Source: Bifidobacteriaceae bacterium NR021
Lineage (GTDB): Bacteria; Actinomycetota; Actinomycetes; Actinomycetales; Bifidobacteriaceae
Length of the DNA stretch: 10,405 nucleotides
Assembly (NCBI GenBank): GCA_003585845.1
Contig: NQOP01000001.1
Coordinates: forward strand, 211,469-221,873
Direction: 5' to 3'
Part shown: piece by piece, positions 4,165 through 10,405 of the stretch
Layout: each line of letters starts with the position of its first letter
How positions within the stretch are numbered: position 1 is the first letter of the stretch
The notes under the pieces: generated by a model
Told to the model about the DNA's origin: nothing
Database searches by the model: none
Seen by the model: only the letters and a program-made list of their open reading frames with translations
Translations under genes and position numbers: made by a program

Positions 4165-4315
4165 ATGAGTTTATGGTTTTAAGAGCGTAATTTTTATAAA
4201 AGCGGCGTTTTGTTAGATAAATTTTTGTATTAACCGCACTAATTTTCTGCGGACGTGATAGCATCGAATAGATATATATCAAAGGGCTATGCCCAAAAAG
4301 CGAGGTGTAAAGCAT

Positions 4316-5644
4316 ATGACTCTGTTGACGCCTAAGGACATTCGAGAGCATACCTTCCAAATTGTACGTTTTAAGGGAGGTTATGACGTTGACGAGGTCG
4401 ACGAGTTTCTCGATCAGGTTACAGAAACAATAGAAGCACTCGGTCAGCAGGCAGTGCAGGGCCTAGGGGCTTCCACGCAATCTCTTGGCCGTGATGTTGC
4501 GGGTTTGAATACGAAGATTGCTGAGTTAACTTCTAAGGTAGAATCCTTAACCAAGGAAAATGAGGCATTGCGTAGTGCTTCTAAGAAGCAGGGCGAATCA
4601 AATGAAGCTGCTTCTCAACTTGAAGCTACTGCAACTAAGTTGCGTGAAGCTGAAGAAAGTAATCGTGCTTTGACTGCTCAAAACCAGCAGTTGAAGGAAC
4701 AGTTAGATGGTTTGGGTGCGCAGGTAGATCAGTTAACTGCTCAAACTGCTCAAGCAGACAATGCTAAGCAGGTTCAAAAAGAGCTTGAAACTGTTACTCG
4801 CGAGCGCGACGACTTCCGTGCAAGCAGTGAAAACTTGGGTCGCGAGCTTGAAACTGTTCGCCAGCAGCTTGTTGTCACTCAGCAGGAAAACACTAAGGTT
4901 GAGGAACTTTCCAAGCAGTTGGAAGAGTCTCGTCAGCGTGAAGAGCAGCTTCGAAAGCAGGTTGCTAAGATGGAACCAAATACTGAAACTGGTAGCTTGC
5001 AAAAGATTGCTGGTGCTGGTGCAGAAGCACAAGGTTCTGAGCCAGAGCGTGCAACTGCAATGTTGACTCTTGCTATGCAATTGCATGATCAATATGTGGA
5101 TAAGGGCAAGGCTAAGGCTCAACAAATTGTTGAAGAAAGCCAAGCTCGTTATAACGAAACTGTTGCTAAAGCAGATGAATATTCTGCACGCACTCGTTCT
5201 GAAGCTGAAGAATACAGCAAGCAGACTCATGCTGATGCTGACGATTACTCTACTCGTACTCGCGGCGATGCTGATTCTTATGCTGCTCGTGCTCACAATG
5301 AGGCTGACGCTTACTCTGGTAAGGTTCGTCAAGCTGCTGATGATTACTCTAAGCAGACGCACGATCAAGCTGACCAGTATGAAGCTGAAGTACAGCATCG
5401 TGCTGCAGACTATGATTCTACAACTCGTACAGCTGCTGATGCATATGCTCGTCAGGTACGTGAGAATCTTGAGAAGCAAACTCAAGTTATTGAAGGAAAT
5501 ATTCAGAGCCTCAAGCAATTTGAGACTGAATATCGTACTCGCTTGACTGATTTCCTTGGTCAGTTGGTTGCTCAAGTTTCTGATGAAAATACCTATGCTG
5601 CATTAGGCAACAAGCAGGGTGAAGAATCTGGTAAGCAAGAGTAG
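4316..5644 (+). CDS. divIVA: DivIVA/Wag31-like polar growth and division scaffold
   Basis: A coiled-coil scaffold of 442 residues from the ATG at 4316. That start is preferred because GAGGTG (4302-4307) lies eight bases before it and the protein then begins MTLLTPKDI, as in the family. An ATG at 4289 would add nine basic residues (MPKKRGVKH) and has AAAGGG only two bases away. Residues about 1-40 are the membrane-binding N-domain, with FKGGYDVDEVDEFLDQV. Residues about 65-215 form a long coiled coil rich in Gln, Glu and Leu. Residues 286-384 are nine 11-residue repeats with invariant Ala and Tyr. A helical end follows. It is much longer than B. subtilis DivIVA (about 164 residues). In actinobacteria the protein gathers at negatively curved membrane, mainly poles and septa, and recruits cell-wall synthesis. 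It is followed by an RNA hairpin and lspA. Confidence 0.94.
   Translation: MTLLTPKDIREHTFQIVRFKGGYDVDEVDEFLDQVTETIEALGQQAVQGLGASTQSLGRDVAGLNTKIAELTSKVESLTKENEALRSASKKQGESNEAASQLEATATKLREAEESNRALTAQNQQLKEQLDGLGAQVDQLTAQTAQADNAKQVQKELETVTRERDDFRASSENLGRELETVRQQLVVTQQENTKVEELSKQLEESRQREEQLRKQVAKMEPNTETGSLQKIAGAGAEAQGSEPERATAMLTLAMQLHDQYVDKGKAKAQQIVEESQARYNETVAKADEYSARTRSEAEEYSKQTHADADDYSTRTRGDADSYAARAHNEADAYSGKVRQAADDYSKQTHDQADQYEAEVQHRAADYDSTTRTAADAYARQVRENLEKQTQVIEGNIQSLKQFETEYRTRLTDFLGQLVAQVSDENTYAALGNKQGEESGKQE
5171..5467 (+). repeat. Nine in-frame 33-bp (11-residue) repeats in divIVA
   Basis: Nine consecutive units of 11 codons follow the pattern A-D-x-Y-S-x-x-T/V-R/H-x-x. Ala at position 1 and Tyr at position 4 occur in all nine; Asp or Glu is at position 2 in eight. 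Units 2 and 6 share YSKQTH but use different synonymous codons, so the array is old and kept by selection rather than a fresh duplication. An 11-residue period (hendecad) suits a nearly straight or right-handed coiled coil. Confidence 0.93.
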
Positions 5645-5650
5645 TTTTTA

Positions 5651-5689
5651 GCAGTGCGTGACTGATATTTTAAAAATGTTGCGCACTGC
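5651..5689 (+). other. RNA hairpin between divIVA and lspA
   Basis: GCAGTGCGTGAC (5651-5662) pairs with GTTGCGCACTGC (5678-5689) over 12 positions as RNA, counting two G-U pairs, around a 15-base AT-rich loop. It begins six bases after the divIVA stop codon. No T run follows on either strand, so it is not a standard intrinsic terminator. It may protect the divIVA mRNA 3' end, serve as a processing site or be part of a leader controlling lspA. Confidence 0.6.
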
Positions 5690-5726: not shown

Positions 5727-6236
5727 TTGACGCATAGAGATGTGCGTGTGAAACGGCTACGTACTCGCGTAGCCGTTTTTGCACTGATTGTTTTTATTGG
5801 TGTTGTGCTAGATCGCATAACAAAACTTTGGGCTTTGGCGACGCTTAGTGACGGGAAAAACATTGAGCTTGTGCCGCACTTGCTTTCTTTAACTCTTGTA
5901 CGAAATCCTGGAGCATCATTTGGTTTAGGTTCTTCTTTTACATGGGTTATTAGCGTATTAGCTTGTGCTGCTTGTGGTGCAATGACAGCTGCTGTTAAGC
6001 ACACAAAATCTTTGTATTGGACTATTGCGTTTGCTCTAGCGTTTGCTGGAGCTTTTGGAAACCTCCTTGATAGAGCTCAATATGCTCAAGGTTTTTTGAA
6101 TGGCAAAGTCGTAGATTTTATAAACTACGGTTGGTCTGTTGGCAACGTTGCAGATATTGAGCTTATGTTTGCAGGAATCGCAGTTGTATGCCTTATTTTG
6201 ATTGGGATTCCTCTTTTAGAGCATGCCGATGAGTGA
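5727..6236 (+). CDS. lspA: Lipoprotein signal peptidase (signal peptidase II)
   Basis: A 169-residue membrane aspartyl protease that removes the signal peptide of prolipoproteins after lipid attachment by Lgt. Four hydrophobic segments lie at about 15-33, 68-90, 96-114 and 144-164. Family motifs are present: RNPGASFGL (59-67), GNLLDR (111-116), the catalytic Asp130 in KVVDF and the second catalytic Asp143 in NVAD. The start is uncertain. TTG 5727 has only a weak CGGA upstream; in-frame GTG codons at 5742 and 5748 are alternatives, and the last would give a short basic N-terminus directly before the first membrane segment. A perfect terminator-like hairpin covers the codons after GTG 5748. The 3' end overlaps the next gene by 14 bases, which suggests coupled translation. 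Confidence 0.95.
   Translation: MTHRDVRVKRLRTRVAVFALIVFIGVVLDRITKLWALATLSDGKNIELVPHLLSLTLVRNPGASFGLGSSFTWVISVLACAACGAMTAAVKHTKSLYWTIAFALAFAGAFGNLLDRAQYAQGFLNGKVVDFINYGWSVGNVADIELMFAGIAVVCLILIGIPLLEHADE
5751..5780 (+). terminator. Terminator-like hairpin inside the lspA 5' coding region
   Basis: AAACGGCTACG (5751-5761) and CGTAGCCGTTT (5768-5778) are perfect complements over 11 bp with a six-base loop TACTCG. The right arm runs into TTTTT (5776-5780). This is the full form of an intrinsic terminator, yet it encodes residues 9-18 of LspA counted from TTG 5727. It may end most divIVA transcripts or act as an attenuator opened by ribosomes starting lspA. Confidence 0.75.
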
Positions 6237-7185
6237 TATTTGCTTTGAAGTTACAAGCCAATTTTCCGGCTGCAGATTTGACGTTTGCTTATCAAAACTA
6301 ATGGGGGTTTCGCGTGCAAATGCGATATCTCTTATTGAGTGTAACCAAGCGAAAATCTTAGGTAGGAAATCACAAAAATCCTCCATTTTGCAAGATGGAG
6401 ATACGATTGTTGTCAATCAAGAAGAAAGTGCAGAACAAAAAGTAACAGCACAGCAAAAAGAAGAGCAAAATAATAAATCTTCTGTATGTAATATTCCAAT
6501 CATTTACAACGACGATGATGTTGTTGTAATAGATAAGCCTGTTGGAGTTGCCTCTCACGCAGCAAAGGGATGGAGTGGGCCGACAGTTCCAGAATGCCTA
6601 GAAGCTGCTGGAATAGATATAAAAACAACGCTGTGCGACGAATCGCGCAAAGGAATCGTAAGCAGATTAGACGTTGGAACAAGCGGATTAATGCTAATTT
6701 GTAAAACAGACTTTGCCTATGAAGCAATGAAAAATCAGTTTGCAAAGCATATCGTTAAAAAAACGTATCATGCGCTTGTTCAAGGAGACTTAGCGCAAGA
6801 TAAAGCTACTATTGAGGCTCCTATAGGTCGTGCAAAAGTATCTGATTTTCGTTTTACTATTACTTCGGAAGGCAAGCCTGCTGTTACGCACTGGGATGTG
6901 CTTGAGCGTTTTGGTCAAGCAACGTTAGTAAGCGTTAATTTGGAAACTGGCCGCACTCATCAAATCCGCGTGCATTTTACTTCTATTGGTCACCCTTTGG
7001 TTGGGGATTCAATGTATGGAGCGAACCCAGTTTTGGCTCAAAAACTTGGGTTGCAACGTCAATGGTTGCATTCTATGGAACTTACTTTTACGCATCCTCG
7101 CACGGGTAAATCAGTGACGGTTAAGTCGCATTATCCTCTTGATTTGCAACACGCGTTAGAAGCTATGCGAGCATTATTAAAGTAA
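6223..7185 (+). CDS. rluD: RluA/RluD-family pseudouridine synthase
   Basis: A 320-residue RNA pseudouridine synthase, probably acting on 23S rRNA; the exact uridine target cannot be read from the sequence. Residues about 10-62 form an S4 RNA-binding domain. A hydrophilic Gln/Glu/Lys linker (about 66-85) leads to the catalytic domain, with IDKPVGVASH, the core motif SRLDVGTSGLM carrying catalytic Asp150, and GRTHQIRVHF (243-252). The motif usually reads HRLD in this family; here Ser147 replaces His. His is not the catalytic residue, so activity is expected. The ATG at 6223 overlaps lspA by 14 bases; ATG 6229 would overlap by 8. No strong Shine-Dalgarno is seen, which fits reinitiation after lspA. 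A synthase gene in this place, between lspA and dnaE, is usual in actinobacteria. Confidence 0.9.
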   Translation: MPMSDICFEVTSQFSGCRFDVCLSKLMGVSRANAISLIECNQAKILGRKSQKSSILQDGDTIVVNQEESAEQKVTAQQKEEQNNKSSVCNIPIIYNDDDVVVIDKPVGVASHAAKGWSGPTVPECLEAAGIDIKTTLCDESRKGIVSRLDVGTSGLMLICKTDFAYEAMKNQFAKHIVKKTYHALVQGDLAQDKATIEAPIGRAKVSDFRFTITSEGKPAVTHWDVLERFGQATLVSVNLETGRTHQIRVHFTSIGHPLVGDSMYGANPVLAQKLGLQRQWLHSMELTFTHPRTGKSVTVKSHYPLDLQHALEAMRALLK

Positions 7186-7231: not shown

Positions 7232-10200
7232 ATGACTCAGCCGGAAACCAATTTTGTGCATTTACACAATCACACGCATTATTCACTTCTAGATGGTGCG
7301 TCAAAAATACCTGATTTAGTAGCGCGTGCTAAAGAATTAGGCATGCCGGCTGTTGCAATTACGGATCATGGCAACATGCATGGCGCGTATGAAATGTGGA
7401 GCACGGCTGTAAAAGCTGGGATTAAGCCAATTATTGGCATAGAAGCGTATGTTACTCCGGAAACAGCAAGACAAGACAAAAGTCGCGTGCATTGGGGCAC
7501 GGAAGATCAGCGTGCAGATGACGTTTCTGGCGGCGGTTTAATTACGCATATGACTTTGTGGGCGGAAAACGATACCGGCTTAACAAATCTTCTTAAAGCT
7601 TCGTCTGTTGCAAATCTTGAAGGCCGTGTAATGCGCTACCCGCGTATGGATAAAGACGTTCTTTCAACCTACTCAAAAGGTGTAATTGCGTCTTCAGGAT
7701 GCCCTTCTGGAATTATTCAGACGCGTCTTCGTTTAGGTCAGTTCAAAGAGGCTTTGCGAGCAGCTGGTGAGTTTCAAGATATTTTCGGGCGTGACAATTT
7801 CTTTATTGAGCTTATGAATCACGGGCTTTCTATTGAAACGCGCGTAACTAAAGACTTGCTTGAAATTGCAAAAAAGCTTAACGCACCTCTTCTTGCAACG
7901 AACGATTTGCATTACGTTCATGAAGAAGATCGTGAAGCGCAAGATGCTATGCTTTGCATTAATTCCGGCTCGCGCTTGGACGATCCTGACCGTTTTAAGT
8001 TTGACGGTTCCGGATACTATTTGAAGTCCGCTGAGCAAATGCGTGAGCTTTTTAAAGAGTTTCCAGAAGCTTGCGATAACACGCTTGAGATTGCTCGTCG
8101 ATGCAATGTTATGTTCGACGACGGCGAAGATGGCGCTTTTATGCCGCAATTTGACTGCCCGGAAGGTTGGGATGAGACTTCGCTATTCCTTAAAAAAGTT
8201 GAGGAAGGTTTGGAGCGTCGTTACAATAACAACATTCCAATGGAAGTTTTAAAGCAGGCTGATTACGAGTGCGGTGTGATTTGCCAAATGCAGTTCTGCG
8301 GATACTTTTTAGTTGTTGCAGATTATATTAATTGGGCTAAAGCGCATGGCGTAATGGTTGGACCTGGTCGTGGTTCTGCTGCAGGTGCTATGGTTGCGTA
8401 CGCAATGGGCATAACAGAGCTTGATCCTATGAAGCACGGTCTGATTTTCGAACGCTTCTTAAACCCTGAGCGCGTATCCTTGCCTGATATTGACGTTGAT
8501 TTTGACCCGGATGGTCGAGCTAAAGTTCTTGAATACGTGGGCGAAAAATACGGTAGAGATAAAGTAGCTCAGTGCGTTATTTACGGAACTATTAAAACGA
8601 AGCAAGCTCTTAAAGATTCAGCTCGAATTATGGGATACGAGTTTTCAGTAGGCGAAAAAATTACGAAAGTTCTTCCTCCTGCTAAAAACGGCAAAGATAT
8701 GAGCTTGCATGATATTTTCGACGAAAAATCAAAGCGTTACGCTGAAGCGCGCGAGTTCCGCGAAATGTACGACACGGATCCAGATACTCATCGCATTACC
8801 GAAGAAGCTAAGGGCATTGAAGGTTTGATTCGTCAAACTGGTGTGCACGCTTGTGCAACAATCATGGGTTCGGAGCCAATCACAAACACTTCGCCGCTTT
8901 TAGAGCGCACTGACGGTACTATTACTACAACTTTTGAGTACCACACTTGTGAAACGCTCGGTCTTGTAAAAATGGACTTTTTGGGGCTTTCCAACTTAAC
9001 GGTTATTCGCGATACTTTGCGAAATATCGAAAATAATGGGAAGGATCCGATTGATTATACTAAGATTCCGTTAGACGATAAAGCTACTTATCAACTGCTT
9101 TCTAGAGGTGACACTTTAGGCGTTTTCCAGCTTGATTCCGACGGTATGCGTGCGCTTCTACGTACTTTGAAACCGGATAATTTCAACGATATTTCGGCTT
9201 TGATTGCACTTTACAGACCTGGTCCTATGGATATGGATTCGCACACGAATTATGCTAAGCGCAAGAACGGTTTGCAAGATATTATCCCTATTCATCCAGA
9301 AGTTGAAAAGCCTCTTAAGGAAGTTTTGGACGAAACTTACGGTTTGATTGTTTACCAGGAGCAGGTGCAGTCTGCAGCGCGTATTTTAGCAGGCTACAGT
9401 CTTGGTAAAGCAGATGTGTTGCGTCGAGCAATGGGCAAGAAAAAGCCGGAAGTGCTGGCAAAAGAGCAAGTGCCGTTCTTTGAAGGTATGAAAGCTCACG
9501 GATATTCTGAAGAAGCTGCACAAGCTGTGTGGGATGTTTTGGTTCCGTTCTCTGGTTACGCGTTTAATAAAGCTCACTCTGCAGCTTACGGCTTGATTTC
9601 TTACTGGACGGCATACTTAAAAACGCATTATCCTGTGGAATTTATGGCAGCTTTGCTTCAAAACGAACGTACAAATAAAGACAAAACCGCACTGTACTTG
9701 GGCGAGGCAAGACGCATGGGTATTCAAGTTTTGCAGCCTGATGTGAACGAGTCTGTTCTTGAGTATTCTGCAGTTGGAGATGTTGTGCGCTTTGGTTTGG
9801 GCGCTATTCGTAACGTTGGAGACAAAGCAGTAAACGATATTATTGCTGAGCGCGAAGGTGATCGCGGACGTTTCGTAAACTTTATGGATTTCGTACAACG
9901 TGTTCCTATTAGTGCACTCAATCGACGTTTAGTAGAATCACTTATTAAAGCTGGAGCTTTTGATTCTATTGATTCAAATCGTCGTGCTCTATTTCAAATT
10001 TGTGATCCTGCGATTGATTCTGTGATTGCGCTTAAGCGTAAGCAGGCAGAAGGTCAGTTTGATTTATTTGCTGATCTTGATTCGTCTTCTGACTCGGATG
10101 ACGACAATGGTATGGGAGATATGCAAATTACTGTACCTGATGTTGAAGAGTGGGATAAAAAAACAAAGCTTAATTTTGAGCGAGAAATGCTTGGATTGTA

Positions 10201-10405
10201 CGTTTCTGACCATCCACTAAGTGGATTGTCTGCAGTTTTGGCAGATTTACGTGAGATGTCAATCGCACAACTAATCGACAGAGCAAGAACTATGAGCGAT
10301 GGTCAGCAAGTAACTATTGCAGGCTTAGTTACAAGCGTAGATAGGCGAGTGTCTCGAAAAGGTAACGCTTGGGCGATTGTCACTGTTGAAGACATGGAAA
10401 GTTCA
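7232..10405 (+). CDS. dnaE: DNA polymerase III alpha subunit (3' end outside window)
   Basis: The replicative DNA polymerase catalytic subunit of the C family, open for 1058 codons and cut by the window end; DnaE1 proteins are usually about 1150-1200 residues. The PHP domain (about 8-280) has all its metal-binding marks: HLHNHTHYSLLDG (10-22), TDHGN (44-48), Glu71, Cys157 in SGCPSG and NDLH (224-227). In mycobacterial DnaE1 an intact PHP domain gives 3'-5' proofreading, and the same is inferred here. The palm carries VGPGRGS (376-382) and the metal-binding aspartates in PDIDVDFD (Asp421, Asp423) and KMDFLG (Asp582). A tandem HhH region and the start of the OB fold (QQVTIAGLV) follow a short Asp/Ser-rich stretch near residue 955. 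The ATG at 7232 has no Shine-Dalgarno. It lies 46 bases after the synthase gene. Confidence 0.97.
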   Translation, partial: MTQPETNFVHLHNHTHYSLLDGASKIPDLVARAKELGMPAVAITDHGNMHGAYEMWSTAVKAGIKPIIGIEAYVTPETARQDKSRVHWGTEDQRADDVSGGGLITHMTLWAENDTGLTNLLKASSVANLEGRVMRYPRMDKDVLSTYSKGVIASSGCPSGIIQTRLRLGQFKEALRAAGEFQDIFGRDNFFIELMNHGLSIETRVTKDLLEIAKKLNAPLLATNDLHYVHEEDREAQDAMLCINSGSRLDDPDRFKFDGSGYYLKSAEQMRELFKEFPEACDNTLEIARRCNVMFDDGEDGAFMPQFDCPEGWDETSLFLKKVEEGLERRYNNNIPMEVLKQADYECGVICQMQFCGYFLVVADYINWAKAHGVMVGPGRGSAAGAMVAYAMGITELDPMKHGLIFERFLNPERVSLPDIDVDFDPDGRAKVLEYVGEKYGRDKVAQCVIYGTIKTKQALKDSARIMGYEFSVGEKITKVLPPAKNGKDMSLHDIFDEKSKRYAEAREFREMYDTDPDTHRITEEAKGIEGLIRQTGVHACATIMGSEPITNTSPLLERTDGTITTTFEYHTCETLGLVKMDFLGLSNLTVIRDTLRNIENNGKDPIDYTKIPLDDKATYQLLSRGDTLGVFQLDSDGMRALLRTLKPDNFNDISALIALYRPGPMDMDSHTNYAKRKNGLQDIIPIHPEVEKPLKEVLDETYGLIVYQEQVQSAARILAGYSLGKADVLRRAMGKKKPEVLAKEQVPFFEGMKAHGYSEEAAQAVWDVLVPFSGYAFNKAHSAAYGLISYWTAYLKTHYPVEFMAALLQNERTNKDKTALYLGEARRMGIQVLQPDVNESVLEYSAVGDVVRFGLGAIRNVGDKAVNDIIAEREGDRGRFVNFMDFVQRVPISALNRRLVESLIKAGAFDSIDSNRRALFQICDPAIDSVIALKRKQAEGQFDLFADLDSSSDSDDDNGMGDMQITVPDVEEWDKKTKLNFEREMLGLYVSDHPLSGLSAVLADLREMSIAQLIDRARTMSDGQQVTIAGLVTSVDRRVSRKGNAWAIVTVEDMESS

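Follow-up and report, generated by a model that had tools for sequence, protein, structure and literature searches.

The intrinsic (Rho-independent) terminator of divIVA likely lies, in many Bifidobacteriaceae, inside the 5' coding sequence of the next gene, lspA, and not in the intergenic space. The window analyzed here is a 10,405-nt stretch of the genome of Bifidobacteriaceae bacterium NR021 (contig NQOP01000001.1), and its genes and the two hairpins at the lspA start are on the plus strand. It carries two tRNA genes identified with Rfam (2463-2536 and 2580-2652), divIVA (4289-5644; TIGR03544 DivIVA domain above the cut-off), lspA, which encodes the lipoprotein signal peptidase (5727-6236; NCBIfam NF011353, 280 bits for a cut-off of 241, residues 5-168), an RluA-family pseudouridine synthase gene (6223-7185) and dnaE (7232-10405), which runs off the window. 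The terminator-like hairpin and its T-tract occupy 5750-5780, most likely ending the divIVA transcript, and are preceded by a smaller hairpin at 5730-5747 (-7.6 kcal/mol). The pseudouridine synthase gene overlaps the 3' end of lspA and therefore probably shares its read-through transcript. DivIVA itself contains an extended repetitive stretch rich in Ala, Asp, Tyr and Arg (window positions 5100-5480), and it scores 62.4 bits with the NCBIfam Wag31 model, far under the 260-bit cut-off.

The two arms of the stem, AAACGGCTACG (5751-5761) and CGTAGCCGTTT (5768-5778), are 100% complementary and form 11 uninterrupted Watson-Crick pairs with 6 nt between them. The 11-bp stem, six-base loop and T5 tract that the earlier note had placed in the lspA frame, right after GTG 5748, are confirmed. 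RNAfold adds a U5762-G5767 closure that leaves a four-base loop and, when the flanks are included, a basal G5750-U5779 pair. The T5 tract spans 5776-5780, and its first three T double as the end of the right arm. The 28-nt hairpin has a predicted energy of -17.8 kcal/mol (z = -6.46). None of 200 shuffles was as stable, which rules out a chance origin, and none of 300 synonymous recodings of the 15 hairpin codons (row L001) was as stable as the native sequence. The site was not among the output of a simple scan, and no Rfam covariance model matched over it at E-values up to 5, ruling out a known Rfam cis-regulatory family.

Three in-frame starts are available to lspA in the window (TTG 5727, GTG 5742 and GTG 5748) and all are 5' of the hairpin. 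A start 3' of the stem could be ruled out here, since the next candidate, GTG 5805, would delete the first membrane helix; the region homologous to solved LspA opens at residue 19 or 22, immediately 3' of the stem codons. With no plausible start after the stem, any lspA mRNA of the window that has a start codon carries the stem, whatever its promoter. Across the family, start codons are found inside the hairpin in 99 of 130 sequences and between the stem and the catalytic-region Asp codon in 98 of 130, so codons alone do not rule out a later start everywhere. Codon -42 counts against a start behind the stem: Gardnerella has GTA or GCA at this position, and some Bifidobacterium have GCG. The median Shine-Dalgarno energy is -2.9 kcal/mol for lspA (n = 130) and -3.5 kcal/mol for first-ATG ORFs of this genome (n = 259); for the gene behind lspA it is -8.6 kcal/mol (n = 47), a figure biased by being the best of several candidate starts. 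We also observed an out-of-frame ATG TGC GTG TGA at 5740-5751, overlapping the lspA start region.

The stem is widespread within the family. We collected the lspA 5' region from 111 of 112 genomes of the window's genus (in the GTDB sense; named matches include Gardnerella and Bifidobacterium), from 55 of the 65 genomes searched in the family's other genera and, elsewhere in the order, from the 21 matches that scored best among 108 in other families. G096, at a contig end, and five genomes of the family that gave partial lspA matches could not be used. Counting the stem as present where an uninterrupted helix of at least 8 pairs stood in the right place, we found it at the start of lspA in 151 of the 166 family genomes (110/111 in the genus, 41/55 in the other genera) and in none of the 21 loci of other families, the best 21 of 108. 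Within the genus only L119 fails this rule, and it has a weaker stem at that position. The other genera of the family account for 14 failures, which comprise L061, L141, L147 and L149 (one genus), six members of a reduced-genome genus, L168, L171 and L173 (another genus) and L176. In the reduced-genome genus, six of seven fail the rule and the seventh (L169) passes weakly, although divIVA is nonetheless close upstream; the three that were folded (L165, L170, L174) showed neither an embedded nor a gap terminator. A hairpin-model search, scoring the best 150 candidates per genome, gave its best match at lspA in all 16 genus genomes searched, which rules out a repeated element. Two genomes of other families yielded model matches at G182:C11:44874-44931, G180:C11:381889-381945 and G180:C17:301213-301266, with E-values from 1.5e-4 to 0.002.

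Selection appears to act on the pairing itself. Distances, tail counts and scores were computed on 130 distinct sequences, without L031-L039 and the merged L044, L105 and L108; L169 was set aside by hand from this set for its weak stem, yet is counted as present among the 151. For covariation we aligned 71 of 132 sequences (the 130 plus L119 and L168) having less than 87% mutual identity; L156 and L168 align poorly. Pairing was kept in 95.8% of 921 pair cells, compared with 33.0-54.3% when partners were slid by 1-3 columns, and 11 of the 13 pairs had changed on both sides. On five measures, the real alignment was not equaled by any of 500 shuffles, which do not keep relatedness, and RNAalifold recovered 12 of the 13 pairs unguided. 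The native fold fell in the most stable 1% of synonymous recodings drawn from the gene's own codon use in 115 of the 130 distinct sequences, as opposed to 1 of 21 in other families, and it beat all 300 recodings in 78 of 130. Pair 5759/5770 is A-U in some Gardnerella species and G-C in others, the G-C form being accompanied by a Val-to-Ala change; on a tree built from the lspA body the switch needs at least three changes, each of them required by branches with good support. By these results the hairpin is a conserved RNA structure, and the coding sequence is under an additional RNA-structure constraint.

The position of the stem follows the end of divIVA. Its median distance downstream of the divIVA stop codon is 33 nt (range 13-124, n = 129), and in the window it is about 105 nt. 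A wide gap separates divIVA from lspA in five examinable genomes of the family (G117, G132, G143, G139 and G150), and in 5/5 lspA lacks the stem while the gap holds a hairpin with a T-rich tail and a terminator score of 17.9-26.3. In the genus of G139 and G150, the relatives L156 and L168 have instead a hairpin that overlaps lspA, so the place of the hairpin has moved within one genus. The family loci with an ordinary gap terminator before lspA are L171, L173 and L200-L202. Among the 21 loci of other families, six with divIVA close upstream were scored; their gap hairpins score above 0 in four (L178, L179, L196, L197) and below 0 in L185 (-4.1) and L191 (-56.8). L195 showed no clear hairpin in its divIVA-lspA gap, and at the remaining loci divIVA was not nearby or not found. 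Like the embedded stem, the gap terminators come after divIVA and before the body of lspA, with a strong stem and mostly a T-rich tail; unlike it, they sit between the genes without overlapping lspA. On balance, the stem goes with the end of divIVA and not with the start of lspA. The divIVA 3' region of the window has a hairpin without a T-tail at 5651-5689 (-18.6 kcal/mol), and in L035/L010 this region has a hairpin with other arms, AAAGCGCG/CGCGCTTT.

Covariation and the displacement of the hairpin into wide gaps together make well supported the first of two readings offered by the earlier note, in which the stem would be the real divIVA terminator and lspA would be made by read-through; the support lies in the compensatory changes and in the move of the stem to the gap in all five examinable wide-gap genomes of the family. 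That note had named a lack of conservation beyond what the protein demands as evidence against its idea, and such conservation is present in the recodings, in the compensatory changes and in the 5759/5770 switch.

Points against this reading are the reduced-genome relatives that lack the stem, the gaps in other families where the hairpin scores below 0 or none is clear, and the tail. In the window the stem, the TTTTT and a terminator score of 14.9 fit a terminator. Across the family, 114 of 130 tails have at least 4 T among the 8 bases after the core, with a mean T content of 4.45 of 8 compared with 2.10 elsewhere in lspA, but outside Gardnerella they are only moderately U-rich. The score exceeds 0 in 55 of 130 embedded stems and is below 0 in 75, partly because the rule starts the tail late on long stems. 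Among high-GC genes, 50 of 83 use TTT for the Phe that comes after the stem, compared with 51 of 324 elsewhere (133 sequences, with L037-L039 included). This preference is gone where the base cannot pair (9/35 vs 25/91), so selection on the U-tract separate from the stem is not supported, and we dropped the bias as U-tract evidence because pairing explains it.

In 400 kb of the window's contig, 115 hairpins satisfied one stem rule, and 52 of them had at least 4 T in the 8 bases after the core; these 52 comprise 40 intergenic, 9 sense inside an ORF and 3 antisense. Three T-tailed hairpins of the 400 kb lie inside the first 100 nt of an ORF. One is that of lspA, and another, C4:323219 (minus strand), resembles an ordinary intergenic terminator beside masked bases. 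A terminator score above 0 was reached by 21 of the 59 hairpins between genes, but by only 2 of the 34 in sense orientation within ORFs and 1 of the 22 in antisense orientation. At G000:C4:173977 (plus strand), a stem followed by TTTT is found near the apparent start of a long membrane-protein-like ORF, with masked bases adjacent.

The stem is better conserved than the U-tract, strong stems being kept with poor tails in L114 and L152, and together with the many scores below 0 this would fit an mRNA structure conserved for some purpose other than termination. Such a structure could protect or define the 3' end of divIVA mRNA after cleavage, slow ribosomes or control the translation of lspA. We consider this quite unlikely: the five examinable wide-gap genomes have no stem in lspA and carry a T-tailed hairpin in the gap, and T is more frequent in the tail than in the remainder of lspA.

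If the hairpin is the divIVA terminator, RNA polymerase leaving divIVA would meet it before a ribosome starting on lspA catches up. A large share of the transcripts would then probably end shortly after 5779, carrying divIVA and a stopless stub of lspA, while the remainder would read through and supply LspA and the pseudouridine synthase. We infer termination itself, its strength and the setting of the lspA level by read-through. For a terminator behind a gene in E. coli, Li et al. measured an efficiency near its maximum of ∼0.9 beyond 30 bp from the stop codon (PMC4824070). In the same study, where the terminator stood 30 bp downstream of the AUG of a second ORF, translation of that ORF cost it only about 10%; expression of the upstream gene was roughly halved, an effect that the authors attribute to stopless transcripts (PMC4824070). 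The layout at divIVA-lspA is close to this construct, and one would thus expect efficient termination after divIVA, read-through into lspA and a cost from stopless stubs.

An initiating ribosome covers ∼15 nt past the start codon. This footprint bears on a translation-dependent attenuator, in which ribosomes starting lspA, or re-initiating after divIVA, would open the stem so that transcription of lspA needs its translation. The earlier note had proposed a version in which a ribosome at TTG 5727 covers the stem, and this version is not supported: such a ribosome reaches about 5742 while the stem begins at 5750, and in five Gardnerella leaders folded without the right arm we found no shared antiterminator, the left arm pairing upstream in L003 and L009 with differing partners. 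The loss of only about 10% to translation from a similarly placed E. coli terminator, as reported in the study cited above, argues in the same direction. The arrangement of the genes is more favorable to an attenuator. With lspA starts chosen by rule (ATG before GTG before TTG), 9-30 nt lie between the start codon and the beginning of the stem, and 111 of 129 lspA genes begin from 14 nt before to 24 nt after the divIVA stop codon, 10 of them overlapping it, a layout suited to re-initiation. Against this, the Gardnerella lspA start is ∼80 nt from the divIVA stop.

Gardnerella nonetheless offers a second point in favor of an attenuator, a near-invariant block (5727-5786) that includes the smaller hairpin. 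Over this block of 60 nt, which starts at TTG 5727 and takes in both hairpins, the window and L010 agree at 59 positions, with 19 of 20 third positions equal, whereas the next 375 nt of lspA have 247 identities and 59 of 125 equal third positions. The same contrast between a conserved block and a diverged lspA body is seen with L008, L009, L011 and L014; with L005 the block matches at 53/60 nt and the body at 323/375, so the block is not unusually conserved there. These alignments indicate that in Gardnerella the constraint is wider than the stem in several species pairs. Overall we regard attenuation as improbable, though least so in genomes whose lspA overlaps the divIVA stop or begins no more than 24 nt from it.

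In a related and unlikely speculation, the stem would act as a regulatory checkpoint kept in most of the family. Re-initiation from divIVA to lspA, or in Gardnerella the near-invariant block with its extra hairpin over a weak start, would decide between termination and read-through. Lipoprotein maturation would in this way be coupled to how a division gene is translated. If this were true, stopless lspA starts on terminated transcripts would need ribosome rescue, and weak lspA initiation would be favored.

The high conservation of the core ACGG/CCGT could also suggest a DNA-level palindrome, such as the binding site of a regulator, and not an RNA structure. This is very improbable, given that the arms change in step with pairing kept, that loop length varies, that L152 has a 17-bp stem whose lower half is different (as is its peptide), and that the best model match lies at lspA in each of the 16 genus genomes, among the best 150 candidates of each. 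The chance that the stem is an accident or a by-product of the protein sequence is negligible: the peptide RLRxRVAVF is well conserved in the genus, but no recoding of the window's hairpin was as stable, compensatory changes recur and some alter amino acids, and stems are kept with other peptides in L040, L152, L153 and L159.

Terminators in early coding regions and 3' ends internal to ORFs are already known (PMC4824070; PMC7815308). A close likeness is the E. coli construct W48, where an upstream gene is followed by the start of a second ORF and a terminator ∼30 bp after its AUG, giving stopless ORF transcripts; unlike the lspA junction, W48 is an engineered plasmid with the phage terminator tR2 and not a natural chromosomal junction found across a family (PMC4824070). 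The description of E. coli FtsO in the second source resembles our case in that a coding sequence doubles as an RNA element and is conserved at the nucleotide level beyond the protein, but FtsO is a stable sponge fragment within ftsI, whereas the lspA stem is at the very start of a gene and beside the end of another (PMC7815308). Leader-peptide attenuators such as pyrBI, as the first source presents them, share a terminator that overlaps a short translated stretch; here that stretch is the essential start of a structural gene, and any sensing step would be hypothetical (PMC4824070). In searches of open-licence full texts we recognized no report of this junction. As far as we could find, a known kind of element takes a new form here: a stem, terminator-like and covarying, that belongs to one gene yet is kept within the first codons of its neighbor across much of a family.

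Genes are normally kept clear of their neighbor's terminator. At this junction the family recodes the N-terminus of lspA, and in places swaps amino acids, while keeping the terminator-like pairs. If the stem terminates transcription, lspA would be fed by read-through alone, and the junction would be a natural case of a coding sequence that doubles as a terminator, with the cost of stopless transcripts. The divIVA-lspA junction also seems to be a place where predictions of start codons and operons in these bacteria can fail.
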